NCBI RefSeq assembly: GCF_018599195.1
Contig: NZ_JAHFVK010000001.1
Location: 1,054,001-1,118,000, forward strand
Direction: 5' to 3'
Length of the DNA stretch: 64,000 nt
From: Croceibacterium selenioxidans
GTDB lineage: Bacteria > Pseudomonadota > Alphaproteobacteria > Sphingomonadales > Sphingomonadaceae
This document shows, piece by piece, positions 27,321 through 48,744 of the stretch. The notes below the pieces were generated by a model. That model was not told where the DNA came from. It saw only the letters and a program-made list of their open reading frames with translations, and searched no databases. A program made the position numbers and the translations under genes. How positions within the stretch are numbered: the first letter of the stretch is position 1; each line of letters opens with the position of its first letter.

Positions 27321-27354
27321 CGCGCGGGAAACCGTTCGTCGCATTTGCTTTCTT

Positions 27355-27393: not shown

Positions 27394-27406
27394 AGGAGAG
27401 CGCCCG

Positions 27407-27583: not shown

Positions 27584-27587
27584 CGGC

Positions 27588-28277: not shown

Positions 28278-28301
28278 CGATCCGTCCTAAAGCCCCCCAA
28301 T

Positions 28302-28319
28302 ATTACCGGCTTATGACAA
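28302..28319 (-). promoter_or_regulatory. Pho box before phoB
   Basis: Read on the minus strand: TTGTCAT-AAGC-CGGTAAT. The first half-site matches 6 of 7 and the second 5 of 7 of the known Pho-box half CTGTCAT, with the standard 4-nt spacer. It lies between the phoU stop and the phoB ATG, 24 nt upstream of the start, so phoB can be induced separately from the pst genes. Confidence 0.7.
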
Positions 28320-32389: not shown

Positions 32390-32403
32390 CGCTATTCCCG
32401 ACC

Positions 32404-33444
32404 TTACTTTAGTTCCGAACCGTTCAAGGCTGTGAACGCCGTCGAGGCAGCCTGACTGCGCGCGGCCACGTCGTCGGGGTTCGTCACTAGGCCGATCGCC
32501 GTCAGCGGGCCGTCGCGACCCCATGACTTGGCCCATTCGGCCACGAACTCACGCAAGCCGCGGATCGCATCGAGGTGCGCGTTCTTGACGTAGATGAACA
32601 GCGGCCGTGCACCCGGATATTCGAAGCTGGCGATATTCGCATAAGTCGGTTCCACACCGTTCATGCGCAGGCCATGGACCTTGTCCAGATTCTCCTCAAG
32701 ATAGGAGAAGCCGAACACGCCAATCGCATCGGGGTTACCCTCGATCTTCTGCACGATGAGGTTGTCCTGCTCGCCCTGATCCACGTAGGCGCCATCTGAA
32801 CGCACTTCGGTGCAGAGCTTCTCGTGCTTGTCCTTGTCGGTGTCCTTGAGCGCCTTCATCTCCGCGTTGGTCTCGCAGCCGTGGACCAGGATCAGCTCCT
32901 TGAGCGCATCGCGCGTGCCGGAAGTCGACGGGGGACCGTAGACGAGGATCGGCTTGTTCGGCAGCGAGGGATCGACATCGTGCCAGGTGCGCGCAGTCTG
33001 CTCCTTGCCGAAGGGCTTGGCGGCCAACGCGCGATAGACGATTTCCGGCGTCAGATTCATGTCAATGCCGCCCTTTGCCGAAGCAAAGGCGAGTCCGTCG
33101 AGACCCACCTGGATCTCGGTGATCTCCTTGACGCCATTGGTCTGGCAAGTGGCGAACTCGCTGGCCTTCATGCGGCGCGAGGCGTTGGCTATATCGGGCG
33201 TGTTGGCGCCCACGCCGGCGCAGAACAGGCTGATGCCGCCGCCGGTGCCGGTGGATTCGATGATCGGCGATTTGAAGTCAGGGTTCGAGCGGGCGAAGTT
33301 TTCCGCAACGAGCTTGGCGAACGGATAAACGGTCGAGGATCCGACGGCCCGCACTGAATCGCGCGTGTCGCTTGCTCCACCGCTACATGCCGCAAGTGAG
33401 GCCGCGCACAGGGTGGCGACCGAAAAGCGCCATTTATTCGTCAT
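32404..33444 (-). CDS. pstS: Phosphate-binding protein PstS (lipoprotein)
   Basis: A 346-residue periplasmic phosphate-binding protein. The signal peptide ends in a lipobox-like SLAAC (Cys about 19), so it is probably lipid anchored. Phosphate-ligand motifs are VGSSTVYPFAKLVAE (about 35-49), STGTGGGISLFCAG and PSTSGTRDALKEL. The mature protein resembles PstS-like proteins with an extended Lys/Asp segment (LKDTDKDKHEKL). It is the first gene of pstSCAB-phoU and has a Pho box 42 nt upstream. Confidence 0.93.
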   Translation of the reverse strand: MTNKWRFSVATLCAASLAACSGGASDTRDSVRAVGSSTVYPFAKLVAENFARSNPDFKSPIIESTGTGGGISLFCAGVGANTPDIANASRRMKASEFATCQTNGVKEITEIQVGLDGLAFASAKGGIDMNLTPEIVYRALAAKPFGKEQTARTWHDVDPSLPNKPILVYGPPSTSGTRDALKELILVHGCETNAEMKALKDTDKDKHEKLCTEVRSDGAYVDQGEQDNLIVQKIEGNPDAIGVFGFSYLEENLDKVHGLRMNGVEPTYANIASFEYPGARPLFIYVKNAHLDAIRGLREFVAEWAKSWGRDGPLTAIGLVTNPDDVAARSQAASTAFTALNGSELK

Positions 33445-33486
33445 GATAGGTCCCTTCCAAGATCGGCGGGTGGCTACGGCCTGGGT

Positions 33487-33504
33487 GTTACAGCTTTAAG
33501 ACAA
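33487..33504 (-). promoter_or_regulatory. Pho box before pstS
   Basis: On the minus strand: TTGTCTT-AAAG-CTGTAAC. Each half matches 5 of 7 of CTGTCAT, and the spacer is close to the consensus AAA(A/T). It lies 42 nt before the pstS ATG and 30 nt after the porin stop, so pstSCAB-phoU has its own PhoB-dependent promoter. Confidence 0.7.
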
Positions 33505-33534
33505 GAACCGGTCATATGCCGGACATTTTCGGTG

Positions 33535-34917
33535 TCAGAAGTCGAACTGCGCACGCACTCCGAAGGTGTCGACCTGGTAGTCCGGATCTGCCCCCGCGAG
33601 GACCGCGGCGTCGCTGACCCAGAGGTGCCCATAGTTGAGGATGAAGCGCACGTAGTCTTCCGGGATCCAGATCGCCGACAGACCCGCGGCCTGCTGCAGG
33701 CCTCCGGCGACGTCTTCGTCGTTGAGGTCGATCCTGTCGTAGCGCAGGTTCATTTGAACGGCGCCGATGCCTCCGGCGGACACCGGGCTCTTCGGCCGGA
33801 TCCGATCGTAGATACCGCCCTTGTATACGGTCGCGTCGCCCGTCAGCAGCATGCCGATTTCGGCGTAGCCGCCCCGGAAAGTCGGATTGCTGAGGCCCGG
33901 ACGCAGCGGCGTGATCTGATGGCCTTCGACTGTCGCGTGGAACGGCCCCTGCACGTAGGCGAGTTCCGCACCGAAGCTTCGCTCTCCGGTTGCCGGGATG
34001 TTGCCGGTATCGACCAGACGAACGTCGGTCGTGTGGAAGAAGGGCCGCGCCCGGTAGCGCACTGACGTCGCCGAATCGTTGAGGTCGCGGAAGTGCGCGG
34101 ATCCGCCGACGTGAAGCCGGCCTTCGCCAATCTTGGGCGCGTAGACGATCCGCCCGTCGAAGCTGTAGCTGTTGTTGCCGTCAGAGGTGAGGTCTTCGGC
34201 GTTGGCGGAAAACGCCCCGAGCTGCACCAGGAGGTCCTTGTTCGAGTAGACCCCGCTAAGCCCTACGCGCCGTTCGAAGTTGAAGGCCGAATTGAACGCG
34301 GCCCTTTCCAGCATTGAAGTGAACAGGTCGCTTGTAAGCTCTTCCAATCCCCAGAACGCCTTCTGGTGCCCGAGCGTGAAAGTAAGCTTGTCGGTCGGCT
34401 TGTACGTCAGGAAGACGTCGGTGAGTTCGACCCCTGACGAAGCGACGTCTACTTCCATGCGGTATCCGAAGTTGCCTGGGAGCGTGCCTTCAACACCCAG
34501 AAAGGCGCGGCGAACTTCCGTGCCGAATCCAAGGCCGTCGCCGGCGTTCACCGAGGCCGGGGCGTCAATGATGGCGCTATCCAGCTGCAGCCGTCCGCGT
34601 GGTTTGAACGACCAGCCTCCGGGTGCCGAGACTTCGGGCCCGCCCTTCCAGGAAACCTTGGTTTCCTGCTGTGGGGTTGCGGGCACGGGCGACGCTGTCG
34701 CTTGAGCAGCGTCCGCTGCCTGAACCGACGGGCCGGCATCGTCTTGCGGCTGCTCGCGAGCCTGCAGTTCTGCTACTTGCCCCGCAAGCCGCGCGATTTC
34801 GGCCTGCATTGCGGCGATCTTCTGCTGGAGGTCGGCGACCTCCTGCGACTGGGCGACCGCAGGTCCGGGTGCGACTAGGGCGGAACCAGCCAGAAGGACC
34901 GGCAGTAATGAGCGCAT
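33535..34917 (-). CDS. Phosphate-selective porin, OprO/OprP family
   Basis: A 460-residue outer-membrane porin. A signal peptide (residues 1-22, ending AVAQ) is followed by a short coiled coil (DLQQKIAAMQAEIARLAGQV, about 29-48) that probably trimerises at the periplasmic face, then a Pro/Ala linker and a 16-strand-type barrel ending in a C-terminal Phe (RAQFDF). FGTEVRRAFLGVEGTL and KLTFTLGHQKAFWGLEEL match OprP-type porins. The position between phoR and pstS and the strong Pho box upstream argue that it carries phosphate across the outer membrane. Selectivity itself is inferred from family and context. Confidence 0.88.
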   Translation of the reverse strand: MRSLLPVLLAGSALVAPGPAVAQSQEVADLQQKIAAMQAEIARLAGQVAELQAREQPQDDAGPSVQAADAAQATASPVPATPQQETKVSWKGGPEVSAPGGWSFKPRGRLQLDSAIIDAPASVNAGDGLGFGTEVRRAFLGVEGTLPGNFGYRMEVDVASSGVELTDVFLTYKPTDKLTFTLGHQKAFWGLEELTSDLFTSMLERAAFNSAFNFERRVGLSGVYSNKDLLVQLGAFSANAEDLTSDGNNSYSFDGRIVYAPKIGEGRLHVGGSAHFRDLNDSATSVRYRARPFFHTTDVRLVDTGNIPATGERSFGAELAYVQGPFHATVEGHQITPLRPGLSNPTFRGGYAEIGMLLTGDATVYKGGIYDRIRPKSPVSAGGIGAVQMNLRYDRIDLNDEDVAGGLQQAAGLSAIWIPEDYVRFILNYGHLWVSDAAVLAGADPDYQVDTFGVRAQFDF

Positions 34918-34951
34918 TGCGGTGAAGTCCGTTTGCTAACGTGTCTGTTAC

Positions 34952-34991
34952 ATAACCGCGCTATGACCGGACTATTACAGTACGATGACAC
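34952..34991 (-). promoter_or_regulatory. Multi-site Pho box before the porin gene
   Basis: Four half-sites on the minus strand at an exact 11-bp spacing: GTGTCAT (34985-34991), CTGTAAT (34974-34980), CGGTCAT (34963-34969) and CGGTTAT (34952-34958). They match 6, 6, 6 and 5 of 7 positions of CTGTCAT. This can hold two stacked PhoB dimers in tandem. The array sits between the phoR stop and the porin ATG. Confidence 0.78.
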
Positions 34992-35042
34992 TCCTTCCGG
35001 TTGTCCCCAGCCGTACCACGATTGGGGTGGCCTGGAGTTGCT

Positions 35043-36224
35043 TCAGTCCGCGATGGGCAGCGAAACTGTAACCGTCGTCCCCTCTCCGACACGGCTTGCT
35101 ATGTCCAGCCGACCGCGGTGTCGTTCGACGATGTGCTTCACGATCGCAAGACCAAGGCCGGTACCGCCGGCCGCCCTGCTGCGACCGGGATCGGTTCGGT
35201 AAAAGCGCCTAGTGAGGTGCGGGATGTGTTCTGCGGGGATGCCTTCGCCACGGTCGCGCACGGTCAGCACCGCCATGTCACGTTCGCCGCGCTCGATGGC
35301 TACCGAAACCGGCGTGCCCTGCTCGCCATACTTAAGCGCATTGTCGACCAGGTTGCGGACCAGCTGTTCGAGCTGTTTCTCGTCGGCTCGAACGAGGATT
35401 TCTCCCTCGAGTCCGGCAAGATCGAGCCGGTCCTGGCGATCGAGTCCGGCGCCATCGCGTGCCGACCGCTGGGCGAGCCCGACGAAATCGAGCTTTTCGC
35501 GCGGGTGATCGTGCTTCTCGGCCTCGACACGTGAGAGCGACATGAGATCGCTGACCAGGCTCTGCAGGCGCTTGGCTTCGCGCAGAACCGTGACGTGGAA
35601 GCGCTTGGCCTGTTCCGCTGGCAGGTCTGCACCCTCGTCAACCAAGGTTTCGACGTAACCGATGATCGAGGCGAGGGGGGTGCGCAGCTCGTGGCTCGCG
35701 TTGGCCACGAAATCGGTGTGCGCGCGGCTGACGTCGATTTCTGCAGTGCGATTGACGAGTTCGATCAGCGAATAACGGCCATCGATCGGCTGTCGCGACA
35801 TCTGCCAGCTACTGCCCGGACCCGTCAGCCCCTCGATCGTCGCGCTGCCGCCGTTTGGTTCAGACAGGAGCTCGACGGCGGTAGGATGGCGAAACAGCAC
35901 GCGCGCGTCCTGGCCCAATGTATGCGATCCGACGGCCTCCCTGGCCGCTGCATTCGCGACGACGATCCGCTCGCCATCGAGCATGAACATGGGAAGCCCC
36001 GAGTGTTCGATGAGATCGGCCATACCCGTCGCGGTGAGCTGCACGCCCTCGCGCTGTTGCGGAAGCGAGACCGGCGGGGGAGTGGCGGCCAGCCAGAATG
36101 ACGCGATCCAAACCAGCATCGCTGCCAGGACAAGCAGGATATTCGTACCCGCAAAGGCCATCACCGCTCCGGTAAGGAGCGCGATCACAATTCCGGCAAA
36201 GGGGACTTTTCGACGCTGGGTCAT
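35043..36224 (-). CDS. phoR: Phosphate regulon sensor histidine kinase PhoR
   Basis: A 393-residue kinase. Two closely spaced N-terminal membrane segments (about 9-28 and 31-48) leave almost no periplasmic domain, as expected for PhoR, which senses through PstSCAB-PhoU. A PAS-like region (about 65-160: MADLIEHSGLPMFMLDG) precedes HisKA with His in FVANASHELRTPLASIIGYVETLVD (about residue 178) and an HATPase domain with LVDNALKYGEQGTPV, VRDRGEGIPAEHI and GGTGLGLAIVKHIVERH. It phosphorylates PhoB. A single perfect half-site, CTGTCAT on the minus strand (36250-36256), lies 25 nt upstream. Confidence 0.94.
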   Translation of the reverse strand: MTQRRKVPFAGIVIALLTGAVMAFAGTNILLVLAAMLVWIASFWLAATPPPVSLPQQREGVQLTATGMADLIEHSGLPMFMLDGERIVVANAAAREAVGSHTLGQDARVLFRHPTAVELLSEPNGGSATIEGLTGPGSSWQMSRQPIDGRYSLIELVNRTAEIDVSRAHTDFVANASHELRTPLASIIGYVETLVDEGADLPAEQAKRFHVTVLREAKRLQSLVSDLMSLSRVEAEKHDHPREKLDFVGLAQRSARDGAGLDRQDRLDLAGLEGEILVRADEKQLEQLVRNLVDNALKYGEQGTPVSVAIERGERDMAVLTVRDRGEGIPAEHIPHLTRRFYRTDPGRSRAAGGTGLGLAIVKHIVERHRGRLDIASRVGEGTTVTVSLPIAD

Positions 36225-36249
36225 TCGCCCCGGGCTTTATCGGCAGGAT

Positions 36250-36256
36250 ATGACAG
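36250..36256 (-). promoter_or_regulatory. Isolated Pho half-site before phoR
   Basis: A perfect CTGTCAT on the minus strand 25 nt before the phoR start. Neighbouring positions at 11-bp spacing match poorly, so it may be coincidental or a weak autoregulatory site. Confidence 0.25.
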
Positions 36257-36323
36257 GTTCCAGTCGGATTGATGACGATCGGCGAATTGGCCCGCGGTTC
36301 GCTGCCAGCAGGCTTCCATGGGC

Positions 36324-38546
36324 TCAGAACTTGTAAGTGGCCTCTGCACCGTAAACCCGTGGGCGAGCCTTGAACACGAAGCCGCCAGGCGAAAACTCGG
36401 CGTTGTACTCTTCGTTGAAGAGGTTCTTCGCGAAGGCGAACAAACCCCACTGTTCCCCATCAATTCCGGCCCGCACGTCCACCAGATCGATGGGATCGCG
36501 CACGGTGGAGTTTGGCACGTCCCACCAGGTCTTGCCCGTGCGGCGATAGTCAATCCGGAGCAAGCCACCGATCGTGTCGCTGAGATGCGGGGTCCATTGC
36601 GCACCGAGATTTATCGTCGAGCGCGAGATCAGCGGTAACTCGTTACCGATGAAGTCGGGATCCGGGAACTCCTTGATGTCACTCCATGTCATGCCGAGCG
36701 CGGCGTTGAGCTGGAGATCGGGGGCGGGGCGAACGAACGCCTCGAGCTCGAAGCCGTCGATGCGGGCCTTGGGCACATTGCCGAGATTCTGCGTCGAGTT
36801 GGCGGCCAGGAACACGAAAAAGTAGCTGTTCTTCGTTTCTGTCGTGAACACCGCGCCATTCAAGGTAAGCACATTGTCGAACAGCTGGCTCTTGAAACCG
36901 GCCTCTAGCGTTTGGGCAACTTCCGCCTGGAAGATGTCGCCCACCCCGACGATACCATTGGCGGCGGCAACACCGCCTACGCCCGTTTGGTTGAAGCCGC
37001 CGCTGCGAAAGCCTTTTGAATAACCCCCGTAAAGCGTGATGTCCGCGTTCGGCATATAGGTCAGCGTAACCTTGGGCTGCCAGGCGTCGAACGTCTCTTC
37101 GCGAACTTCTCCGGTGGTGCCGTTGGGCTGTCCGGGGCCGTTCATGAAACCGGGTGGAGTGAGTGTCGTGTTTTCACGATGGTCGCGATCGTATCGCAGC
37201 GAGGCGTCGATCCGGAACTGATCGGAGAATTCATAACCGAGATTGGCGAAGCCGGCCCAGGCAAAGTTGTCCTGGGAATCCGCCAGATAGGAAAATTGCG
37301 GATTGGCCGGGTTTGTACTCGGCGTGCGGTATACCGGGAAGACACCCTGACCGGTATCGACCATGTTGCCCGTCGAAATGAAGCGGTCGGTCGCGATCAT
37401 GTAGCCGCCGAACATCCAGAACAGCTTCTGGTCGTCCGGAGACTGGAAGCGCAGTTCCTGACTAATGGCCTCGACGTCGAGGAATTGGCTCTGGTTGAGG
37501 TCGAACCCGTTGCCCGGGCCAAAAATGGATTCGAACAGCTTGAAGAAGAACGATTCCGGTATCGGCAGGAAATCGAACGCGTCGCCGGTGAGAATCTCGC
37601 TGACGGTGTCGTAGGAAGTGATCGAGGTCGCCGTGAAGTTTTCGTTTTCGTAAGAAATCTTGGCCGCAACGTTGTAGATGTCGCGATCGTTCTGACCGGC
37701 ATTGTTGACCCGAACCGGAAGACTGGTGTCGTTCACGTCGGTCACGATATTGAAATACAGTGCCTGGGTGCGCAGCAAATCCATCGAACCGCGCAAGTCC
37801 ACTTCCCAGCCGCTGCCTAGGTCAAACAGCAGGTTCCCGCGCAACGCCATGTTCTTGTACGGGTCGGCATCTTCACCGAGGTAGGTGTTGGGGATGAACC
37901 CGTCGGTATCGTAGTACTGCCCCGCCAGGCGGAACTTGACGGCTTCGGTGCCGAGGGGCCCGCTGACGGAGCCGCGTGCGTACCACCCGAAGCCGTTGTC
38001 GACACCCGCGGTGATCTTGCCCTCGAACTCTTCTGTGGGCTGCCTGGTCTGGATGATAATGGCGCCACCGATGGCGTTGCGGCCATAGAGACCGCCTTGC
38101 GGCCCCCTGAGAACCTCGATCTGCTGGATGTCGAACAGATCCTGATTGAACTGAGCCGGATTGACCTGCTGCACCCCGTCGACAACCACGGCGACCGATG
38201 GTTCACTGTTGCGGGCTTGGGTGATCCCCCGGATCACGATGAAGGCATTGCCGGCGTTTTGCGTCTCGACGAGATTCACGTTGGGCGTCAGGCTGATGAA
38301 GTCGATCGGTCGAGTGATGCGGGCGTTCTCGATCGTTTCCTGTGAGAAGGCTGTTATGGCGGCGGGGGTATTCTGCAGTTCGTCGGTGCGGCGCAGTCCG
38401 GTAACCACGATTGTATTCCCGGTGGCGATCTCGCCCGGCGCCGCTTCTTCTGGGGTCTGATCCTGAGCCAGCGCGGGTGACGCCGCCATGACGCTCGCAA
38501 GCACTAATGCGCCGCAAGAAGCGGTTTGCAGATAACGGTTCGTCAT
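36324..38546 (-). CDS. TonB-dependent outer-membrane receptor
   Basis: A 740-residue TonB-dependent receptor. A signal peptide ends at SPALAQ (about residue 28). A TonB-box-like start (NTIVVTGLRR) leads into the plug domain (NTPAAITAFSQETIENARI, VRGPQGGLYGRNAIGGAIII-type motif at about 125-145) and a barrel of about 22 strands ending in YKF. It belongs to the large sphingomonad group related to FecA/CirA-like receptors; the ligand cannot be read. ATG 38546 is chosen because GGGGAGG lies 5 nt upstream; the frame is open to 38582. It is on the same strand as phoR, 99 nt upstream of it, but I see no Pho box before it. Confidence 0.9.
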   Translation of the reverse strand: MTNRYLQTASCGALVLASVMAASPALAQDQTPEEAAPGEIATGNTIVVTGLRRTDELQNTPAAITAFSQETIENARITRPIDFISLTPNVNLVETQNAGNAFIVIRGITQARNSEPSVAVVVDGVQQVNPAQFNQDLFDIQQIEVLRGPQGGLYGRNAIGGAIIIQTRQPTEEFEGKITAGVDNGFGWYARGSVSGPLGTEAVKFRLAGQYYDTDGFIPNTYLGEDADPYKNMALRGNLLFDLGSGWEVDLRGSMDLLRTQALYFNIVTDVNDTSLPVRVNNAGQNDRDIYNVAAKISYENENFTATSITSYDTVSEILTGDAFDFLPIPESFFFKLFESIFGPGNGFDLNQSQFLDVEAISQELRFQSPDDQKLFWMFGGYMIATDRFISTGNMVDTGQGVFPVYRTPSTNPANPQFSYLADSQDNFAWAGFANLGYEFSDQFRIDASLRYDRDHRENTTLTPPGFMNGPGQPNGTTGEVREETFDAWQPKVTLTYMPNADITLYGGYSKGFRSGGFNQTGVGGVAAANGIVGVGDIFQAEVAQTLEAGFKSQLFDNVLTLNGAVFTTETKNSYFFVFLAANSTQNLGNVPKARIDGFELEAFVRPAPDLQLNAALGMTWSDIKEFPDPDFIGNELPLISRSTINLGAQWTPHLSDTIGGLLRIDYRRTGKTWWDVPNSTVRDPIDLVDVRAGIDGEQWGLFAFAKNLFNEEYNAEFSPGGFVFKARPRVYGAEATYKF

Positions 38547-38963
38547 GTGTCCTCCCCATCCCTTCTTTTCTTTGCTTGCCATAGCATAAACGAGGGGTGC
38601 GGAAAATAATTCGGTAGGTTTCAGGCCGAACGTGGAAAGTCATGGCGGCCGAGCTGGCGTTCAGTTCCTTGGGCTTAAGCCATAAACGGATATTCGCGAG
38701 CGGCTCACGACTAGCCACAACATCCTTGCAAGGTGAGCTCGCCGGAACTGGCCGACCGGGGACATTTTGCTTTGGACGTTAGCCCCGCGAAAAGCTGTAG
38801 GTCAGTTCGTGACCGTCGCGCCAGTCTCGACGAGGCTGCATGGCATTGAAGGCAGCTTCCCCTGATATAATCTAAGTTAAGGTCCTGTATTCCTAGGCCA
38901 AAGCAATTGCTCGTTGCGGTTTTTTGCCGCTAGAGCAGCCCGGTCACAGCCCAGGACCAAATT
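38547..38963. other. 417-bp divergent intergenic region
   Basis: Between the TonB receptor and the hybrid kinase, which are transcribed away from each other. I find no ORF. It holds a good -10 hexamer TATAAT at 38866-38871 on the plus strand without a convincing -35, giving a possible leader of about 90 nt for the kinase gene. A small nested hairpin lies at 38910-38937: GCTC...GAGC outside, GCGG...CCGC inside, with six T in the loop. No Pho box, CIRCE or EcfG-type (GGAAC-N16/17-CGTT) element is visible. Confidence 0.45.
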
Positions 38964-41900
38964 ATGCCGCGCTCATTTTCACGCACCTTTGCTACACCGA
39001 AGTCAGGCGTGAACTTGTCAGCCGGGTTGGCGCTCGTGTTGGCTGTACTGTTTTTCGTGGCGAGCAGCGCGATTACGGCTCTCAACGTCAGTATGCTGCG
39101 CGACGGCGCGGCCCGGGTTCAACACACCCACACTGTCATTACTTCGCTCGATGAGCTGATTTCCAGCCTCCAAGACGCCGAGACCGGACAGCGAGGTTTT
39201 CTCCTCACCGGAAGGGAAGACTATCTTGTTCCCTACAACGAGGCGATCGCGCGCGTATCGGGGCAGCTTGATAACATTGGCGAACTCATTAGCGACAATC
39301 CCGCCCAACAGCGCCATTTGGCCGTGTTGCGAGGACGCACGGAAGCCAAGCTCACGGAGCTAAAGGACACCATCGAGACGCGGCGCAATTCCGGTTTCGC
39401 CGCCGCGGCCGCACTTGTCGCGACCGATCGCGGAAAGGCCGAGATGGATGCCATACGCGGCCAGCTTGATGAGATGCAGCAGGAGGAAACCCGGCTCCGA
39501 CTCCTGCGCATCGATGAAATGGAAAGAGCCTATCAATCGGCCTGGCTGACAGGTGTCCTCGCCGGAATACTCGGTATAGGGCTCACTTTGGCGATTGGCT
39601 TCCTTTTGCGCCGAAGCACAGCCGCACGTGAACTTCAGCGATGGCAGCAAACGGGCCAAGCCGATCTAGCCGCGGCGATGCTTGGAGAGCAAACTTCAAT
39701 GCAGCTGGGCGAGGCTGTCCTCCAGACGCTGTCCGAATATCTCAATGCCCAGGGCGGTGTCATTTTTGCAGGCGATGACGGCGCGTATAGGCGCCTCGCG
39801 CTGAGAGGGGTTCCCGGCGACGCGCAGGTGGTCGAACAGTTTTCGATCGGCGAAGGGCTGCTCGGACAAGTTGCGGCCGATCGCAACGTCGTGCAGCTGA
39901 GCGACATTCCTGACGGATATCTCACGATCGGGTCGGCGCTGGGACGCGACAAACCGCGATACCTCGTCATTTTTCCAGCCATCGCCGACGACGCCGTGGA
40001 AGGAGTGCTCGAACTCGGCTTCCTCCAGGCTCCGGATTCTCGTGTGCTGGGCTTCTTGGAACAAGCCTCATCGTCGATCGGAACCGCGCTTCGTTCTGCG
40101 CGCTTTCGGGCCGACCTTCAAAAGCTGCTGGAGGAAACGCAGCGGCAGTCGGAAGAACTCCAGACCCAAAGCGAAGAGCTTCGAGTATCGAACGAGGAGC
40201 TGGAAGAGCAGGGCCGAGCGCTCAAGGAATCACAGGCACGGCTTGAGCAGCAACAGGTCGAGCTTGAGCAAACCAACTCCCAGCTCGAGGAGCAGACGCA
40301 ACAATTGGAAGGCCAGCGTGATGATCTGGTCCGCGCGAATGCGGCGGTCGAGCTCAAGGCCCGCGAACTCGAGCAAGCCAGCCGCTACAAGTCCGACTTC
40401 CTGGCGAACATGTCCCACGAACTGCGCACGCCGCTCAATTCGCTGCTGATCCTCTCTAAGCTGCTCGGCGACAATTCCGCGGGTAATTTGAATGACGAGC
40501 AGGTCAAATATGCTCGCACGATTCACGCGTCAGGCAATGATCTGCTGTCCCTGATCAACGATATTCTCGATCTCTCCAAGATCGAGGCCGGTCACGTTGA
40601 AGTGCACCCCGAAACTGTGTCGCTCGAGCGGCTTGCGACCGACATGCGCCAGCTGTTCGAGCCCGTGGCAGACGAGGGCCAGCTGACATTTGGCGTGAGT
40701 ATCGCCGAGAATGCCCCAGCGACCATTGATACCGACCGCCAACGCCTTGAGCAGATACTCAAAAACCTTCTTTCAAACGCTTTCAAGTTTACCGAGGCCG
40801 GAGGGGTCCGATTGGAAATCGGTCGCGCGGGAGAAGAGAGGCTCACGTTGGCCGTCTCCGATACGGGCATCGGCATTCCCGAAGACCAGCAGCGCGAGAT
40901 CTTCGAGGCCTTCCGCCAAGCCGATGGAACGATCAGTCGCAAGTACGGTGGAACCGGGCTGGGCCTCGCGATTTCGAGAGAGCTCGCCCGACTGCTTGGG
41001 GGCAGCATCGAGTTGACAAGTACGTACGGTGAGGGAAGCCGGTTCACCCTTTCGATACCGCTGGCATACGATCCGGCACTGGCACCGTCGTCGGCGATGT
41101 CCCCTGTCCAGCCTTTAGCTGCCGAGGCGCCGCCGCAGGGGGAGCCGGTTCAGGTGCCGAAGGTTCTTCCCCGCCGACTGGACGACGACCGCGAAAGTTT
41201 GAGCAGCGACCGCCGCATCCTGCTCGTTGTGGAAGACGACAGTAGTTTTGCCGCCATCGTGCGTGACCTCGCGCATGAAATGAGCTTTCAATGTCTGATT
41301 GCCGGGACTGCCGAAGAGGCCTTGGGGCTTGCCAGGCAGTTCAAACCGAGCGCGGTTGTCCTTGACGTCGGGCTACCCGATCAATCCGGCCTGGCGGTTC
41401 TCGACCGGCTCAAGCGCGACGTGAGCACCCGTCACATCCCTGTACATGTCGTCTCCGCCAGCGATCATACGCAAACCGCGCTATCGCTGGGCGCCATCGG
41501 CTATCTGGTGAAGCCGGTTAGCAGAGAGAAGCTTTCGGCGGTTCTGGAGGCGCTCTCGTCGAAGCTAGCCAGGAACGCGAGGCGGATCCTGATCGTGGAG
41601 GACGACTCTGTGCAGCGCGATGCCGTGGCGCAACTCCTTGCAAGCGGGGACGTGGAAACGGTCGGCGTCGGGACCGCGAGCGAATGTCTGGAAAGACTGC
41701 GCACCGAGACTTTCGACTGCCTGGTGCTCGACCTGACATTGCCGGACGCGTCGGGTTTCGCGTTGCTGGAGCGGTTGCGAGAAGACGCCGATTTCAGTTT
41801 TCCGCCGGTAATCGTCTACACAGGGCGCGATCTCTCAAGCGAAGAGGAGCAGCGCCTTCGCCGTTATTCCGATTCCATTATTATCAAGGGCGCCCGTTCG

Positions 41901-42398
41901 CCCGAGCGGCTGCTCGACGAAGTATCGCTCTTCCTTCACCAGGTCGTGACGGACCTGCCGCCCGAGCAACAGAAGATGATCCAGCAGGCGCGCAATCGCG
42001 ACGCGATTCTGGAAGGGCGGCGTATCCTGATCGTCGAGGATGACGTGAGAAATGTCTATTCGCTGACCAATATCCTGGAACCTCGAGGGGCGAGCATCGC
42101 TATTGCACGAAATGGGCGTGAGGCGATCGAAGCGCTTGATAACGCGGCGCGGAGCAATGGAAATGAGATCGACCTTGTGCTCATGGATGTGATGATGCCG
42201 GTGATGGACGGCCTGACCGCGACCCGTGAAATTCGTCAGGACGGACGCTGGAAGAAGCTTCCGATCATCATGCTAACGGCAAAGGCGATGCCCGACGATC
42301 AACAGCGTTGCATCGAGGCCGGCGCGAGTGACTACATGGCCAAGCCGCTCGATGTTGACCGGTTGCTGTCGCTCGTGCGGGTCTGGATGCCGCGGTAG
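38964..42398 (+). CDS. CHASE3-GAF hybrid histidine kinase with three receivers
   Basis: A 1144-residue membrane sensor. Layout: first membrane helix (about 20-42); periplasmic CHASE3 domain (about 45-180, with QDAETGQRGFLLTGREDYL); second helix (about 193-213); GAF (about 225-370); a long coiled coil of repeated QSEEL/EEL units (about 375-480); HisKA with His 485 in ANMSHELRTPLNSLL; HATPase (about 590-705, GGTGLGLAISRELARLLGG); then three receivers with Asp near 801 (VLDVGLPD), 923 (LDLTLPD) and 1075 (LMDVMMP). There is no Hpt domain. AGGA precedes the ATG. It heads a module with CheR, CheB and a second kinase (next three genes), which overlap or nearly touch. The stimulus is unknown. Confidence 0.92.
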   Translation: MPRSFSRTFATPKSGVNLSAGLALVLAVLFFVASSAITALNVSMLRDGAARVQHTHTVITSLDELISSLQDAETGQRGFLLTGREDYLVPYNEAIARVSGQLDNIGELISDNPAQQRHLAVLRGRTEAKLTELKDTIETRRNSGFAAAAALVATDRGKAEMDAIRGQLDEMQQEETRLRLLRIDEMERAYQSAWLTGVLAGILGIGLTLAIGFLLRRSTAARELQRWQQTGQADLAAAMLGEQTSMQLGEAVLQTLSEYLNAQGGVIFAGDDGAYRRLALRGVPGDAQVVEQFSIGEGLLGQVAADRNVVQLSDIPDGYLTIGSALGRDKPRYLVIFPAIADDAVEGVLELGFLQAPDSRVLGFLEQASSSIGTALRSARFRADLQKLLEETQRQSEELQTQSEELRVSNEELEEQGRALKESQARLEQQQVELEQTNSQLEEQTQQLEGQRDDLVRANAAVELKARELEQASRYKSDFLANMSHELRTPLNSLLILSKLLGDNSAGNLNDEQVKYARTIHASGNDLLSLINDILDLSKIEAGHVEVHPETVSLERLATDMRQLFEPVADEGQLTFGVSIAENAPATIDTDRQRLEQILKNLLSNAFKFTEAGGVRLEIGRAGEERLTLAVSDTGIGIPEDQQREIFEAFRQADGTISRKYGGTGLGLAISRELARLLGGSIELTSTYGEGSRFTLSIPLAYDPALAPSSAMSPVQPLAAEAPPQGEPVQVPKVLPRRLDDDRESLSSDRRILLVVEDDSSFAAIVRDLAHEMSFQCLIAGTAEEALGLARQFKPSAVVLDVGLPDQSGLAVLDRLKRDVSTRHIPVHVVSASDHTQTALSLGAIGYLVKPVSREKLSAVLEALSSKLARNARRILIVEDDSVQRDAVAQLLASGDVETVGVGTASECLERLRTETFDCLVLDLTLPDASGFALLERLREDADFSFPPVIVYTGRDLSSEEEQRLRRYSDSIIIKGARSPERLLDEVSLFLHQVVTDLPPEQQKMIQQARNRDAILEGRRILIVEDDVRNVYSLTNILEPRGASIAIARNGREAIEALDNAARSNGNEIDLVLMDVMMPVMDGLTATREIRQDGRWKKLPIIMLTAKAMPDDQQRCIEAGASDYMAKPLDVDRLLSLVRVWMPR

Positions 42399-42409
42399 AA
42401 GACAACATC

Positions 42410-43234
42410 GTGTCGGATTCCATCGAAGATATCGAGATGCGCCTGCTGCTAGAGGCCATCCACCTGCGCTATCATTATGACTTTCGTCATTATGCGCAGG
42501 CCTCCGTGCGCAGGCGCCTTCGCCAGGCGAAAAAGCAACTTCAGTTCGACACCTTTTCAGCCATGCAGGAAGCGCTCCTGCACGACGAGACCATGCTGTC
42601 GCGGATCCTCGGCTATTTGACCGTGCAAGTGAGCGAGATGTTTCGCGACCCATCATTTTTCCTCGCGATCCGTGAAAAGGTGGTCCCGCACTTACGAACT
42701 TATCCGTCGCTTAAGGTCTGGATTGCGGGCTGCAGCGGAGGAGAGGAACTGCACTCTTACGCCATCTTGTTCCGTGAAGAGGGCTTGGAAGACCGAACGA
42801 TCTTCTATGCCACAGACATAAGTCCGGATGCGTTGGAGACCGCGGCACGCGGAATTTACTCGCTGGACCGGATAGCAGGTTTCACCGAAAACCATCGCGC
42901 AGCAGGAGGCAAAACCTCCCTCTCTGACTATTACTCGACTGGATACGGTGGAGCCGTCTTCGACAAAACCTTGCGTGAGCGTGTGGTTTTTTCGGACCAC
43001 AGTCTGGTTACCGACGCGGTCTTTGCTGAAATGCATCTCATCTCATGCCGAAACGTGCTCATCTACTTCGACAGGACGCTGCAGGATCGCGCTCTGGGTC
43101 TCTTTCGTGACTCGCTAGTGCGCAACGGATTTCTGGGTCTGGGCGCGAAAGAGAGCATCCGGTTCTCGGACCACGCGAGTTCGTTTTCCGATTTCGCCCG
43201 AACTGAGAAGATCTACCAGAGGCGTGAACCATGA
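42410..43234 (+). CDS. CheR-type SAM-dependent protein methyltransferase
   Basis: A 274-residue CheR-like enzyme. The N-terminal helical domain has YDFRHYAQASVRRRLRQ and the SAM domain starts WIAGCSGGEELHSYAIL, a variant of the usual GCSTGEEPYS. Further marks are ATDISPDALETAARGIY and ISCRNVLIYFD, both typical of CheR. CheR methylates glutamates of chemoreceptors, but none is encoded here; the partner kinase's coiled coil with its many EE pairs is a possible substrate (inference). The start is GTG at 42410, 11 nt after the hybrid kinase, and its 3' end overlaps cheB. Confidence 0.88.
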   Translation: MSDSIEDIEMRLLLEAIHLRYHYDFRHYAQASVRRRLRQAKKQLQFDTFSAMQEALLHDETMLSRILGYLTVQVSEMFRDPSFFLAIREKVVPHLRTYPSLKVWIAGCSGGEELHSYAILFREEGLEDRTIFYATDISPDALETAARGIYSLDRIAGFTENHRAAGGKTSLSDYYSTGYGGAVFDKTLRERVVFSDHSLVTDAVFAEMHLISCRNVLIYFDRTLQDRALGLFRDSLVRNGFLGLGAKESIRFSDHASSFSDFARTEKIYQRREP

Positions 43235-43809
43235 ATGACGCGCCCGAAAGAGCGATCGTGATCGGGGCTTCCGCGGGGGCAATTGAGGCCCTGTCCGTGA
43301 TCCTTCCCGCGCTACCGGCTGATTTTCCCGCCCCGATCCTGATCGTGGTCCACATTCCGTCCGACCGCAGCAACTTCTTGAGCCCGCTTTTTGCCGCAAA
43401 ATGCCAGATGTCGGTTCGCGAGGTCGAGGATAAGGAGCCGGCTGAGCGCGGTATCGTGTACTTCGCACCATCAAATTACCACTTGCTAGTGGAAGAGGGC
43501 GGTACGCTCGCACTGTCTGCCGACGAACCGGTACAGCACTCACGGCCTTCGATCGACGTTCTCTTCGAGAGCGCGGCCGAAGCCTATGGCGCGGGCCTCG
43601 TCGGGGTAGTGCTGACGGGCGCGAACGAAGACGGTTCCAGCGGAGCCCAGGCCATCGCGTCAGCCCACGGCACCGTGATCGTTGAAGATCCTGCGGGCGC
43701 CTATGCCGAGACCATGCCTCGGGCGGCCATACGCAAATGCCCCGAGGCGCATGTCATGGCGCTCGACGCCATCGCGCCATTTCTCCTTCGTGAGCTTGGA
43801 AGATCATGA
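43231..43809 (+). CDS. CheB-type methylesterase without receiver domain
   Basis: A 192-residue CheB catalytic domain. The Ser-His-Asp triad can be read: Ser in IGASAGAIEAL (about 12), His in IVVHIPSDRSN (about 39) and Asp in VLTGANEDGSSGA (about 135). Standard CheB has an N-terminal receiver that controls it; this protein begins directly with the esterase domain, so activity must be controlled otherwise, perhaps by binding a receiver of the neighbouring kinases. It overlaps both cheR and the next gene by 4 nt. Confidence 0.9.
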   Translation: MNDAPERAIVIGASAGAIEALSVILPALPADFPAPILIVVHIPSDRSNFLSPLFAAKCQMSVREVEDKEPAERGIVYFAPSNYHLLVEEGGTLALSADEPVQHSRPSIDVLFESAAEAYGAGLVGVVLTGANEDGSSGAQAIASAHGTVIVEDPAGAYAETMPRAAIRKCPEAHVMALDAIAPFLLRELGRS

Positions 43810-44981
43810 ACCAGATGCCCCCCGTCCATTTTCTGTTGGTCGATGATCTTGAGGAAAACCTGCTTTCGCTAGGAGCGATACTCAAGGGCGACGACGTTGT
43901 TTTGCTGAAAGCCCGCTCCGGAGAAGAAGCCCTGGAGCTACTGCTGCGCCATGACGTTGCGCTCGCCCTGCTAGACGTCCACATGCCGAACATGGATGGC
44001 TTCGAGCTCGCGGAATTCATGCGCGGGAACGAACGCACCAAGCACATCCCGATCATCTTCGTGACCGCAGGCACTGCCGATGCCCAGCGCCGGTTTCGCG
44101 GGTATGAGGCGGGAGCGGTCGACTTCATTCAGAAACCCATCGAAGCTGACGTCTTGCGGAGCAAGGCAGAGGTCTTCTTTGACCTGCATCGTCAACGACA
44201 GATAGTAGCCAACCAGCGCGACAAGCTCGAGACGGCGTCGCAGGGTCTTCTCGCCGCAGACCGGCGGAAGAATGAATTTCTGGCGGTACTAGCTCACGAA
44301 CTGCGTAATCCGGTGGCGGCGCTGCACGGCGGACTAACTCTGCTCGAACGGCACGAAGGTACCCAAAGAACGGTCGGAATTCGCGACGAGATGCGTCGCC
44401 GGGTTCACCATCTGTCGCGCCTGGTCGAAGATCTGCTGGACATTTCGCGGATAACAGAGGGGAAGATTTCCCTGCAAAAGGAGCGGATCGAACTCCGCCC
44501 CCTGTTACAACAAGCGATCGATCTCAATCAAGAGAACTTGAAGTCAAGCGGCCACGGGTTTTCTCTGGAAATCCCCGAGTATCCTATCGTCCTAGATGCC
44601 GATTTTGTTCGAATGACGCAGGTTGTTTCGAACTTACTCAGCAATGCCATAAAATACACACCTTCCGGTGGATCGATTGTTCTTAAAGCGTCTTGTGATG
44701 ATAAATGGGCGGAGATTGCAGTCGAAGACGACGGGCTAGGCATTCCTGCTGAGCTGCAGCTGCGGATCTTCGAGATTTTTGGCCAAATCGAAGCCCATCG
44801 TCAGCAGTCCGAAGGGGGACTTGGCATCGGGCTAGCTCTCGTAAAGCAACTCGTAGAGCTTCACGGAGGGACAATCTCGGTCGACAGCAAGGGCGAAGGT
44901 CAGGGAAGCACTTTCACCGTGCGCGTCCCTGCATTTTGCGCCGCGACAGCTTGTGCCTCGGCAGAACCTGAGAACGGGTGA
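43806..44981 (+). CDS. Response regulator-histidine kinase fusion (REC-HisKA-HATPase)
   Basis: A 391-residue soluble protein. The receiver (1-125) has VDDLEENLLSLGAIL, phospho-acceptor Asp 57 in ALLDVHMPNMDG and Lys in FIQKPIE. HisKA has His 164 in LAVLAHELRNPVAALHG, and HATPase has LLSNAIKYTPSGGSIV, VEDDGLGIPAEL and GGLGIGLALVKQLVELHGG. It lacks membrane segments. A kinase led by its own receiver could be phosphorylated by the upstream hybrid kinase and continue a relay. It is the last gene of the module, followed by a hairpin at 44983-45025. Confidence 0.9.
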   Translation: MNQMPPVHFLLVDDLEENLLSLGAILKGDDVVLLKARSGEEALELLLRHDVALALLDVHMPNMDGFELAEFMRGNERTKHIPIIFVTAGTADAQRRFRGYEAGAVDFIQKPIEADVLRSKAEVFFDLHRQRQIVANQRDKLETASQGLLAADRRKNEFLAVLAHELRNPVAALHGGLTLLERHEGTQRTVGIRDEMRRRVHHLSRLVEDLLDISRITEGKISLQKERIELRPLLQQAIDLNQENLKSSGHGFSLEIPEYPIVLDADFVRMTQVVSNLLSNAIKYTPSGGSIVLKASCDDKWAEIAVEDDGLGIPAELQLRIFEIFGQIEAHRQQSEGGLGIGLALVKQLVELHGGTISVDSKGEGQGSTFTVRVPAFCAATACASAEPENG

Positions 44982-44982
44982 T

Positions 44983-45025
44983 CCAACGGCCTTGCCTTCT
45001 CGAGCGTCTCGCTTTGGGCCGTTGG
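44983..45025 (+). terminator. Hairpin after the kinase/CheB/CheR module
   Basis: A perfect 9-bp inverted repeat, CCAACGGCC (44983-44991) and GGCCGTTGG (45017-45025), starting two bases after the stop codon, with a 25-nt loop. No T-tract follows; it is a terminator-like or mRNA-stabilising structure. Confidence 0.45.
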
Positions 45026-45168
45026 CAGACAGTTCGCTCGCCACCCATCGCGCATATAGTCCCGTGTTGGCTCGAGACCCTTGCGTCCCGCCTAAGACAA
45101 GGTCTGTTGGACAGCGACCATGGAACTCCGCTTACGCGGGCGACAAAGTCATCTTGTTCGGCGCGAAG

Positions 45169-45258
45169 TGGCGGACAGGGTGGGATTCGAACCCACGGTG
45201 GGCTTGCACCCACGGCGGTTTTCAAGACCGCTGCCTTAAACCACTCGGCCACCTGTCC
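45169..45258 (-). tRNA. tRNA-Ser (anticodon UGA)
   Basis: A 90-nt type II tRNA. The acceptor stem is GGACAGG pairing with CCTGTCC, followed by discriminator G and an encoded CCA (minus strand 45171-45169). The anticodon arm reads GCGGTC-TTGAAAA-CCGC with anticodon TGA. A long variable arm (GTGGG/CCCAC) and a T-loop GGTTCGAATCC are clear. It decodes UCA and, by wobble, other UCN codons. It lies between the signalling module and a secreted-protein gene. Confidence 0.96.
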
Positions 45259-45391: not shown

Positions 45392-46288
45392 ATGAAGCGT
45401 TTGGTCGTTGGTGCGCTCGGAGCGCTAGTTGCTGTAACCGTCGCTAGCCCGGCATTAGCCCAGGCGGGCTGCACCCGCGAACGTCTCACGGAAGTCGCCG
45501 AACAGTACCGCGCCGCGCAGGCCAGCGGGCAGGCGATCATGCACATGCGGCCGATGGGCGAGTGGGTGAACTACAACGAGAACTTCGAGCTCTCGTCGAT
45601 GACCTACGGTGGCGTGATCGCGACGCCGCAAAAAGTCGACTGGGACCGGGCGTTCTACGACACCGCGAGCTGCTCGGTGTATGTGGAAAGCATCATCACC
45701 AATCCCGAGCACCCTTACGTGTTGGCCACAATCGTCAACTCCCGTGGGGGGACGATCAACGGCTTCGACGTTATCGTCGCTGATCAGGACGACTGGCTCT
45801 TCAACGCGGAGAAGACGCTCTATTATGCCCAGCGCGAAGATTGGAGCGAAATTCCCGAAGCCCGACGCAACACGCGCGAGGAAATCAAGGCGGCCGCTGA
45901 CGCCTATCTCGACCTGTTCAAGGACAAGAGCGTGCAGGTGCCTTGGGGAACGCCTTGCGCCCGCCTGGAAGGCAGCGTCTACACCGGCAAGGGAACGGCC
46001 GAGGACACTTGCAATGTCGGGGTTCCCGACAACATCGATATGACAGAACGCCGGTATGTGATCGATCCCGTCTACGGCACTGTCGCGGTATTCCTGAAGA
46101 TGGGACCGAACAAGCGCCCCGATGCGCACGTATTCCGCATCGAGGACGGAAAGATCCGCTTCATCCACACGATCACCAACTGCAAGGGTGACAATAACTG
46201 TGGGTTCACTCCCTTCGCTGAAATGGTGAAGAGCAATCCCAACATGTGGCCGAACCTCGATCACCTGCCGGTAGTGAAATCCAAGTAA
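45392..46288 (+). CDS. Secreted DUF8021-like protein
   Basis: A 298-residue exported protein of unknown function. A signal peptide ends at SPALAQ (residues 1-24). The mature part resembles the DUF8021 family, best known from filamentous fungi, through WDRAFYDTASCSVYVE, NPEHPYVLATIV, DDWLFNAEKTLYYAQRE and AADAYLDLFKDKSVQVPWGTPCARLEG. Six cysteines in the mature protein suggest disulfides. A SnoaL/NTF2-like fold is possible but not proven. ATG 45392 is preferred over the upstream GTG at 45362. The leader has a small hairpin (GCCACG/CGTGGC, 45347-45366). A strong hairpin follows the stop. Confidence 0.7.
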   Translation: MKRLVVGALGALVAVTVASPALAQAGCTRERLTEVAEQYRAAQASGQAIMHMRPMGEWVNYNENFELSSMTYGGVIATPQKVDWDRAFYDTASCSVYVESIITNPEHPYVLATIVNSRGGTINGFDVIVADQDDWLFNAEKTLYYAQREDWSEIPEARRNTREEIKAAADAYLDLFKDKSVQVPWGTPCARLEGSVYTGKGTAEDTCNVGVPDNIDMTERRYVIDPVYGTVAVFLKMGPNKRPDAHVFRIEDGKIRFIHTITNCKGDNNCGFTPFAEMVKSNPNMWPNLDHLPVVKSK

Positions 46289-46339: not shown

Positions 46340-46384
46340 CCTTTGGGGATTCCCTTGTGGGCCGGCTCATGCCAAGATGGGTCC

Positions 46385-47407
46385 ATGGTGCTGCGTCGTT
46401 TTCTCCCCGTCCTTTCCGCCTCACTGGCTCTCCTGATCGCGGCCTTGCCGGCCTGTGCGCAGGACAGCTCGTTCGAAGGCTACATGCAGCAAGTCGCCGC
46501 CAAGGCGCGAGCGGAAGGGGTGAGCGAGCGTTCGATCAGTATGCTCTATGGCCTGACACCGAACGAGCGGGTCATTGCCCTTGATCGTGACAACGTTTCA
46601 GGCGGGACCACGAGCAACACGTTCCCGCCACTCGCGCCTTATATCCGCGACCACAACTCGACCGCCCGGATCGAAGGGGGCCGACGGGCTTACGCGCGGC
46701 TGTATCCTTACGCTGCCGACGTAACCGCACGATACGGCGTTCCCGAGCCGATCGTGATCGCCATTTGGGGCCATGAAACCAGCTACGGTGCAGTGCGCGG
46801 CAGCTTCGACCTGGTGCGCTCGTTGGCCACGCTGGCCTGGGAAGGGCGGAGGCGCGAGCTTTTCGAGCGCGAGTTGATCGACGTCCTCAAAATTGCCGAC
46901 ACCGGAGTTCCGCGGTCGACCTTGGTCGGCAGTTGGGCCGGGGCATTTGGGAATCCGCAGTTCCTGCCTAGTGTCTATTTGCGGCTCGCAGTCGACGGCG
47001 ACGGCGATGGCGATCGGGACATCTGGACCAGTGAAGTAGACACACTCCACTCGATCGCTAACTATTTCCGTGACGCCGGTTGGCGGCGGGGACAGCCCTG
47101 GGCCGTGCGCGCCTATGCGCCGAACAGCGTGGATCGGTCCTCGATCCAGACCCGGATGGTCTCGCCGATCTGCCCCCGCGTCCATATTCGCCACAGCCAA
47201 TGGAAGACCGTGGGAGAGTGGCGCGAACTGGGCGTCATTCCGCAGGCGCCGATAGGCGATGACGTCATGGCGTCACTGTTCGAGCCCGATGGGCCGGCAG
47301 CGCCGAGCTACCTCATCACTCAGAACTATCGCGTGATCCTCGAATACAACTGCTCGAACTACTACGCGATGAGTGTGGGGCTGCTAGCTGATGAGATTGC
47401 CCGCTGA
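46385..47407 (+). CDS. Lytic murein transglycosylase, MltB type
   Basis: A 340-residue exported peptidoglycan lyase. A signal peptide ends near ALPACAQ (about residue 22); the Cys could make it a lipoprotein but the -1 position is not a clear lipobox. The catalytic Glu is in IAIWGHETSYGAVRG (about residue 128), followed by family motifs VRSLATLAWEG, SWAGAFGNPQFLPSVYLR and DIWTSEVDTLHSIANYF. It cleaves glycan strands forming 1,6-anhydro-MurNAc. It stands alone, upstream of a peptidoglycan carboxypeptidase operon. The in-frame GTG/ATG codons upstream to 46343 precede the signal peptide and are less likely. Confidence 0.88.
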   Translation: MVLRRFLPVLSASLALLIAALPACAQDSSFEGYMQQVAAKARAEGVSERSISMLYGLTPNERVIALDRDNVSGGTTSNTFPPLAPYIRDHNSTARIEGGRRAYARLYPYAADVTARYGVPEPIVIAIWGHETSYGAVRGSFDLVRSLATLAWEGRRRELFERELIDVLKIADTGVPRSTLVGSWAGAFGNPQFLPSVYLRLAVDGDGDGDRDIWTSEVDTLHSIANYFRDAGWRRGQPWAVRAYAPNSVDRSSIQTRMVSPICPRVHIRHSQWKTVGEWRELGVIPQAPIGDDVMASLFEPDGPAAPSYLITQNYRVILEYNCSNYYAMSVGLLADEIAR

Positions 47408-47556
47408 TGTCGCATTGAGGGCGTTATGCAGTCACCTTTCGTGGAGAAGCCGAAGCCTCGCTCGTCAAGGGTGAGACCGCGGGTTATAGCAACGCCCGAA
47501 TCTAGATGAGCGGCTGATTGCGCAAGGCGCCTGCCGTTCCGGCGGTTGGAGCGCAT

Positions 47557-48744
47557 TTGAAACTCTCGACTCTACGACTGATCGCAAGTGCGGCGCTTGT
47601 CTGCACCGCGTTCCCGGCGGCCTCGCTCGACGAGCCCGCTTCTCCCTTGGTGCTGACTTCGTCGGTGGCGGCTCCGGTGCATGAAGATATACCGGTCGTC
47701 CTACTGTTCGACATGTCGAGCGGCCAAACGCTCTATTCGCGCGAGCCGAACCGTCGCTTTGTCCCGGCCTCGGTCACGAAGGTGATGACGGCCTACACGG
47801 CTTTTGGCCTGCTCGCGCAGGGTAAGCTCAAGTCGGACATGCCGGTCACGGTGAGCAAGGAAGTGGCCGAATTGTGGTCCGGCGAAGGCTCGTCGATGTT
47901 CCTCAGGGCTGGCGACGTCGTCACTGTGGGGCAGCTACTGCTAGGCGTGACAACGGTTTCGGCAAACGATGGAGCCGTCGTCCTGTCGCTTGCTGCTGCA
48001 GGCACGCAGGACGCCTGGCTCAAGATGATGAACGCGAACGCTGCCGAACTGGGCATGCGCGATACGCATTTCGGCACTCCCAACGGGTGGCCGGACGAAG
48101 GACGCACCTATACCAGCGCTCACGACCTTGCGCTTCTGGCCGAAGCGATGATCACGCGTTATCCTGGGCTTTATCATCAATATATCGGTCACCGCGGCAT
48201 GAGCTACCGTGACATTACCCAAGCCAATCACGATCCGATAACCGGGGTGGTCGATGGTGCGGACGGCATCAAGACGGGTTTCACTCGGCAGGCCGGCTAC
48301 AACTTTCTCGGCTCCGCACAGCGCGACGGGCGACGACTGGTCATGGTCATCGCCGGGGCGCCGACACCCAACATCCGCAATACGACCGCGCGAAATCTGA
48401 TGAACTGGGGTTTCGGCGCTTTCGAGAGCCGCAAGATCCTTGCAGACGACGTCACCGTGGGCGAAGCTCGGGTTCAGAACGGATCGAGCAACGCGGTCAA
48501 GCTTAAGACAAAGGGTCCGGTACTCGCCAGCGTTCCGAATGGCAGCAAGGCGACCGCGACCCTCTCAGTGCGCTATCGCGGGCCTATCGAAGCGCCGATC
48601 AAGGCTGGGCAGGAGGTCGCCTGGCTGCGCGTGACGTTGCCTGGGCAGCAACCGCACGACGTGCCGCTTGTCGCCGCCGAGGACGTTGAACAGGCTGGTG
48701 TGTTTCGCCGCCTGGTGAACGGCATAGCGGGACTGGCGACGTGA
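47557..48744 (+). CDS. D-alanyl-D-alanine carboxypeptidase (PBP5/6 family)
   Basis: A 395-residue low-molecular-weight penicillin-binding protein. A signal peptide (MKLSTLRLIASAALVCTAF) precedes the S11 domain with active-site Ser in PASVTKVM (SxxK), VSANDGAV (SxN) and DGIKTGFTRQAGY (KTG). The C-terminal beta domain (PVLASVPNGSKATATLSVRY) lacks an obvious amphipathic membrane anchor at its end. It trims pentapeptide stems. The chosen start is TTG 47557, five bases after GGAG; the frame is open from TTG 47518. It is the first gene of an operon and its stop overlaps tmk by 4 nt. Confidence 0.9.
   Translation: MKLSTLRLIASAALVCTAFPAASLDEPASPLVLTSSVAAPVHEDIPVVLLFDMSSGQTLYSREPNRRFVPASVTKVMTAYTAFGLLAQGKLKSDMPVTVSKEVAELWSGEGSSMFLRAGDVVTVGQLLLGVTTVSANDGAVVLSLAAAGTQDAWLKMMNANAAELGMRDTHFGTPNGWPDEGRTYTSAHDLALLAEAMITRYPGLYHQYIGHRGMSYRDITQANHDPITGVVDGADGIKTGFTRQAGYNFLGSAQRDGRRLVMVIAGAPTPNIRNTTARNLMNWGFGAFESRKILADDVTVGEARVQNGSSNAVKLKTKGPVLASVPNGSKATATLSVRYRGPIEAPIKAGQEVAWLRVTLPGQQPHDVPLVAAEDVEQAGVFRRLVNGIAGLAT

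Follow-up and report, generated by a model that had tools for sequence, protein, structure and literature searches.

The gene at positions 45392..46288 (+ strand) of the window, by which we mean the whole 64,000-nucleotide stretch of Croceibacterium selenioxidans DNA analysed here, is real, old in its genome and under selection, and its product, P0001, is predicted to consist of two NTF2-like domains in tandem. The original prediction took this protein for a secreted relative of DUF8021, a family mostly known from fungi, and suggested either an old transfer between kingdoms or a shared secreted enzyme. A recent gift from another kingdom is not needed to explain P0001, which does not stand alone: bacteria carry several paralogue classes of its family, in two phyla and at different loci. 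Our best guess at its function, a tentative one, is that it is a pocket enzyme which needs no cofactor and acts on ring-shaped compounds outside the cytoplasm; we place a non-catalytic binder next and a role in the cell envelope third.

A selected gene beside tRNA-Ser

The P0001 reading frame starts with ATG and encodes 298 aa; a GTG ten codons upstream is a possible alternative start, but the ATG agrees better with the orthologues and with the position of the signal peptide. A search for promoter and terminator patterns at the gene gave none. The closest named relatives of P0001 are Porphyrobacter and Altererythrobacter records (96%, 79% and 73% identical), from a group that NCBI taxonomy places in the Erythrobacteraceae. 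The dN/dS ratio is 0.022 against the 96% identical orthologue, lies between 0.022 and 0.044 for near relatives, and reaches 0.234 for more distant ones, as expected of purifying selection. Since dN/dS is low and GC3 is native (0.775, versus 0.751 +/- 0.050 for 43 genes of the window, using gene calls from our own script), we conclude that the gene is real, old and selected; the 96% identical orthologue with its low dN/dS and the recurrence of the gene at one site in 25 of 28 records likewise argue against a chance reading frame. Other origins were considered and rejected: a recent foreign gene by the native GC3 and by synteny across many genera, a pseudogene by purifying selection, and prophage or plasmid cargo because P0001 had no match in plasmids and phages (tblastn) or in viral contigs.

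The gene occupies a conserved insertion site, with tRNA-Ser(TGA) (45169..45258, - strand) at its left edge and the gene for an MltB-like lytic transglycosylase (SLT_2; 46343..47407, + strand; PF13406, E 8.6e-85) at its right edge. Among the 28 examined records with a family gene, 25 have it between the divergent tRNA-Ser(TGA) and mltB, on the mltB strand, where L009 and L077 represent one genome, as do L078 and L181. Nine of the 25 occupied records have two family genes in tandem at the site, and L015, L016 and L083 carry the family gene elsewhere. For 12 genomes of the window genome's own family that were chosen for absence of the gene, the gap between tRNA-Ser and mltB spans 117-345 bases in 11 and 3,139 bases in one, where unrelated genes fill the space. 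The plain reading is that there was one insertion beside tRNA-Ser in an ancestor, early tandem duplication, and then unequal loss; the empty sites place one gain of the family gene. The fetched stretches of the deepest site-type branches (L059, L060, L115 and L113), some of them short, contain neither tRNA-Ser nor mltB.

Two further features of this region involve genes that were named by eye. The gap between tRNA-Ser and mltB in L091 (L091:3101-6241) holds aminotransferase, sulfotransferase-like and membrane protein genes, so the site has received inserts more than once. On the other side of the tRNA, the window has about 18 kb (27320-45169) between lpd and tRNA-Ser, which lie close together in many relatives, and this stretch holds phosphate-uptake-like genes, a TonB-type receptor, a hybrid kinase and a CheR/CheB-like cluster.

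The neighbours of the window copy are peptidoglycan and housekeeping genes, which raises the possibility that P0001 is a cell-envelope helper tied to its co-oriented peptidoglycan neighbours mltB, rlpA and dacC. The family gene lies directly upstream of mltB, on the same strand, in all 25 occupied-site records; mltB encodes an SLT_2 protein, and the next genes encode an RlpA-like protein (in most relatives) and a D-Ala-D-Ala carboxypeptidase. We nonetheless regard an envelope role as quite improbable, given that mltB retains an RlpA-like or dacC neighbour in all 12 genomes without a family gene, and that paralogues and acidobacterial members of the family are located elsewhere. Most relatives have the RlpA-like gene in the interval from mltB to dacC, but the window (46343-48744) and L007 lack it.

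Predicted fold, conserved residues and function

The N terminus of P0001, MKRLVVGALGALVAVTVASPALAQA, looks by eye like a signal peptide (residues 1-23; 45392..45460, + strand) with cleavage near ALA-Q, and the A-x-A/Q pattern is kept in the alignment. The signal peptide and the six cysteines of the original prediction are thus borne out, with all six cysteines located in the 298-aa translation (residues 27, 94, 189, 207, 264 and 270), and both sequence blocks that it quoted occur letter for letter in P0001. The protein is therefore probably exported, to the periplasm or the exterior, and probably contains disulphides. A lipoprotein was considered and rejected: Cys27 follows closely after the signal peptide, but the cysteine lies far further on in P0002, and by eye the lipobox leucine is missing.

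Residue counts used 85 of 87 main-type rows and 25 of 32 rows of a more divergent sister type. Cys27 and Cys94 are both present in 85 of 85 main-type relatives; Cys189 and Cys207 are both present in 82 and both absent in three; and Cys264 and Cys270 are both present in 47 and both absent in 33, with Cys264 alone in five. Because the sister type keeps positions 189 (25/25) and 207 (22/25), and some of its members (P0005 and P0008) seem to have no signal peptide, a plain disulphide role does not account for the retention of Cys189 and Cys207. These two residues fall in the most conserved block of the protein, PWGTPCARLEG..C.VGVP (residues 184-213; 45941..46030, + strand), which was modelled with low confidence. 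Shortened paralogues also exist: P0004 (L003:1501-2217), of 238 residues, lacks this block of the C domain, and with it Cys189 and Cys207, and keeps the other four cysteines, and short relatives are found in L054-L057.

AlphaFold, run with 13 sequences, modelled P0001 with pLDDT 76 and pTM 0.80, showing a helix-then-sheet layout twice; in a Foldseek search with this model, NTF2-like folds ranked first, none with E < 0.001. By VIA-align, the predicted N-terminal domain (residues 25-141; 45464..45814, + strand) has the NTF2-like cup fold, with Z 10-11 (9.9-11.1 over 96-119 residues) for matches that include ketosteroid isomerase, NTF2, NsrQ, AclR and designed NTF2 folds; judged by title, nearly all of the best 50 entries listed are ketosteroid isomerases, NTF2, SnoaL-like or designed proteins of the same fold. 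The predicted C-terminal domain (approximately residues 156-270; 45857..46201, + strand), modelled alone with moderate confidence (pLDDT 67, pTM 0.64), gave Z 5.9-7.2, the tool's middling range, and the rows listed are again nearly all NTF2-like by title. The NTF2-like pocket originally put forward for structure prediction is thus supported in the N half and likely in the C half, with the amendment that there would be two domains rather than one. A comparison of the two halves with hhalign gave a probability of 13% and E 0.0022, which at the sequence level does not establish an internal duplication; the sister type has an E-N motif in both halves. A viral fold search returned one match with E < 0.001, an Edafosvirus 'polyketide cyclase' (311 columns, TM 0.46), which we take as fold resemblance only.

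We propose that P0001 would be an exported protein, periplasmic or extracellular, in which two tandem NTF2-like cups are braced by disulphides and each cup could hold a hydrophobic, ring-bearing small molecule. It may then act as a cofactor-independent acid-base enzyme (an isomerase, dehydratase, cyclase or retro-aldol lyase) on aromatic or polyketide-like substrates outside the cytoplasm, with ketosteroid isomerase, SnoaL, limonene epoxide hydrolase and LdpA as enzyme models. Conservation in the alignment points to candidate working residues: in the first cup Glu63/Asn64 and Asp90, and in the second Arg191, Glu193, Arg220, Asp225 and His259. Asp90, Asp225 and His259 are invariant (85 of 85 main-type relatives), Arg191 and Arg220 are each found in 83 of 85, Glu63 in 79 and Glu193 in 77. 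The sister type keeps Glu63, Asn64 and Asp225 in 25/25 members and has Glu in place of His259, again in every one of the 25, so that a single position on the last strand separates the two classes cleanly.

The ketosteroid isomerase pocket has a catalytic Tyr and two Asp/Glu residues. Compared with it by alignment, not superposition, P0001 has a conserved Glu63/Asn64, and the helix position that aligns by eye with the catalytic Tyr is Tyr, Trp or Phe. That the catalytic Tyr is not kept would suit a non-catalytic exported protein that binds or scavenges a hydrophobic ligand (a signal, a pigment precursor or a siderophore-like compound) in its cups without turnover, and many NTF2-like domains are described as non-catalytic (PMC3924330). 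Yet the charged residues are nearly invariant at approximately 35-40% identity, and together with the switch from His259 to Glu this looks like chemistry; we consider a binder possible, and hold the idea less firmly than that of an enzyme.

The neighbourhoods of the paralogues offer leads, their context genes having been chosen by eye with no background count. Paralogues in the window genome lie near molybdenum hydroxylase, RPE65-type dioxygenase, GST and CoA-ligase/transferase genes, and acidobacterial members lie near genes for OYE-type flavin oxidoreductases and carboxylesterases (L159, L161) and for molybdenum hydroxylases (L171, L173). Molybdenum hydroxylase subunit genes directly adjoin the sister-type P0007 (L067:3835-7641), an arrangement similar to that of the acidobacterial main-type members in L171 and L173.

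We favour a pocket enzyme because of the predicted fold, the conserved residues, the cysteine pairs, the paralogue context and the precedent of LdpA and PcfL, from which we infer both the enzymatic nature and the substrate class of P0001. Several findings count against this reading: Pfam, NCBIfam and PDB gave no sequence match to an enzyme with known function, the window copy sits among housekeeping rather than catabolic genes, and the C-half model is of moderate confidence with a middling Z.

Paralogue classes in two phyla and the question of transfer

Sequence searches assigned no family. Neither P0001 nor four paralogues matched any Pfam family, SnoaL included, at E<=10, and DUF8021, whose accession we take to be PF26061, was not found among the models searched. 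NCBIfam gave nothing above cut-off for P0001 (one match, E 0.065, spans the signal peptide) and no match for eight further family members. Sequence and profile searches of PDB with P0001, and sequence searches with P0005 and P0008, gave no credible match. Literature searches on DUF8021, PF26061 and six diagnostic peptides, and on bacterial origin or transfer of NTF2-like proteins and fungi, also found nothing. DUF8021 proteins of filamentous fungi have a signal peptide, a similar length and blocks such as GDWLFNA and VPWGTPCARLEGG, and it is in these features that they would resemble P0001; DUF8021 is a plausible family name for P0001. A paralogue-rich family with no match in the searched copies of Pfam and NCBIfam represents a sizeable annotation blind spot.

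In bacteria, the family is patchy between lineages and abundant within some of them. A profile of 18 rows matched four of 398 genomes in a phylum-wide sample, all of them in the family of the window genome; within that family, matches came from 32 of 298 genomes and from 13 of 96 genera, and most of them carry more than one paralogue. A sister-type profile matched five of the 398 phylum-sample genomes, again all in this family. In these large samples scoring was limited to a few top-ranked candidates of a first look at each genome, and counts of genomes without a match hold at that sensitivity. The second phylum came to light through L015, from a record titled Acidobacteria bacterium, which was met in a scan with exact P0001 peptides that detects close relatives only; its genome has 16 matching stretches. 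A sample of this phylum yielded matches in 10 of 297 genomes, mainly of one family, and in the family of L015 10 of 15 genomes match. The number of stretches in a matching genome there ranges from 3 to 32, and a single gene may account for two of them. The sister type is present in both bacterial groups. Doubled proteins, in which the whole two-domain unit occurs twice per chain to give four NTF2-like units, are likewise seen in both groups; P0006 (L068:6065-7834) is an example from the window's own genome, and frames of 594-682 aa are found in other genomes.

A tree was built from 92 of 119 distinct proteins; two of 87 main-type proteins were dropped (one doubled, one of low score), and seven sister-type rows were kept as the outgroup, with 25 of 32 dropped. 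The sister type is separate (100/100), and the sphingomonad rows form three classes. The P0002-type (12 rows) joins nine acidobacterial rows (100/99), the L016-type (8 rows) joins eight acidobacterial rows weakly (90/69), and the site type, the class of the window gene, comprises 43 rows (100/98). Because the paralogue classes of the two phyla are interleaved, and the two-phylum labels need 3-4 changes on the tree, the family seems to have crossed between the phyla either repeatedly or once as several paralogues, with long branches near the root advising caution.

Given that the bacterial family is diverse, fungi appear at least as likely to have been recipients as donors. Fungal DUF8021 proteins may have descended from one bacterial paralogue class, a scenario to which we give some, but limited, credence. 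Bacteria have several classes, a sister type and doubled forms, and there is a published parallel in which a secreted protein with two SnoaL-like domains passed from Actinobacteria to Pythium (PMC5023847). On the other side, P0001 is not SnoaL by Pfam, which makes the Pythium case an analogy, and the presumed breadth of the family in fungi is background, our own comparison covering bacterial sequences (the collections searched were prokaryotes, phages, viruses and plasmids). The reverse, in which fungi donated more than once and each interleaved bacterial class stems from a different fungal paralogue, would account for the very patchy bacterial spread (four genomes of the 398, in one family, and mainly one family of the second phylum) and for the 3-4 label changes. 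We think this unlikely, since the composition of the window gene is fully native by GC3 and the more divergent sister type is also in both bacterial groups, and here too the comparison covers bacterial sequences alone.

More speculatively, and with rather little confidence, we suggest that the double-NTF2 proteins would be exported enzymes of a large family that lacks curation. Several distinct paralogues of it would have been traded between Erythrobacteraceae, a single family of Acidobacteriota and, if the fungal proteins do belong here, filamentous fungi, and its members would share an undescribed extracellular chemistry of aromatic or polyketide compounds. The present analysis adds a view of the family in bacteria, where it is uncurated, occurs in many copies, spans two phyla with interleaved classes and has a clean insertion site. 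Since the two phyla are distant, the interleaving of their paralogue classes makes the family well suited to testing whether genes were transferred repeatedly. If fungi share the family, it becomes a candidate for extracellular chemistry common to fungi and bacteria.

Comparison with known NTF2-like proteins

Ketosteroid isomerase, SnoaL/AclR, limonene epoxide hydrolase and NsrQ/Dcr3 each have the fold predicted for the N half of P0001 and, with less confidence, for the C half. P0001 differs from these pocket enzymes in having two cups in one probably exported chain and no detectable sequence similarity to them, and their known catalytic sets have so far not been matched in it. The secreted Pythium protein, for which its authors argue interdomain transfer from bacteria, is like P0001, as predicted here, in having a signal peptide and two SnoaL/NTF2-like domains; it is recognised by Pfam SnoaL models, whereas P0001 is recognised by none, and the two are likened here by description rather than by sequence (PMC5023847).

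Functional precedents are LdpA and PcfL, NTF2-family lyases that act on lignin dimers in sphingomonads, where they work with lignostilbene dioxygenases; strain SYK-6 is said to carry 62 NTF2-superfamily homologues (PMC12997858, PMC11323797). Unlike LdpA and PcfL, P0001 is probably exported and is predicted to have two domains, and neither it nor P0005 or P0008 has a credible PDB sequence match. Both gamma-formaldehyde lyases share with P0001 the same bacterial order and the NTF2 superfamily, to which P0001 is assigned by its predicted fold, and their partner dioxygenases find a parallel in the sister-type P0005, whose gene lies near that of an RPE65-type dioxygenase.
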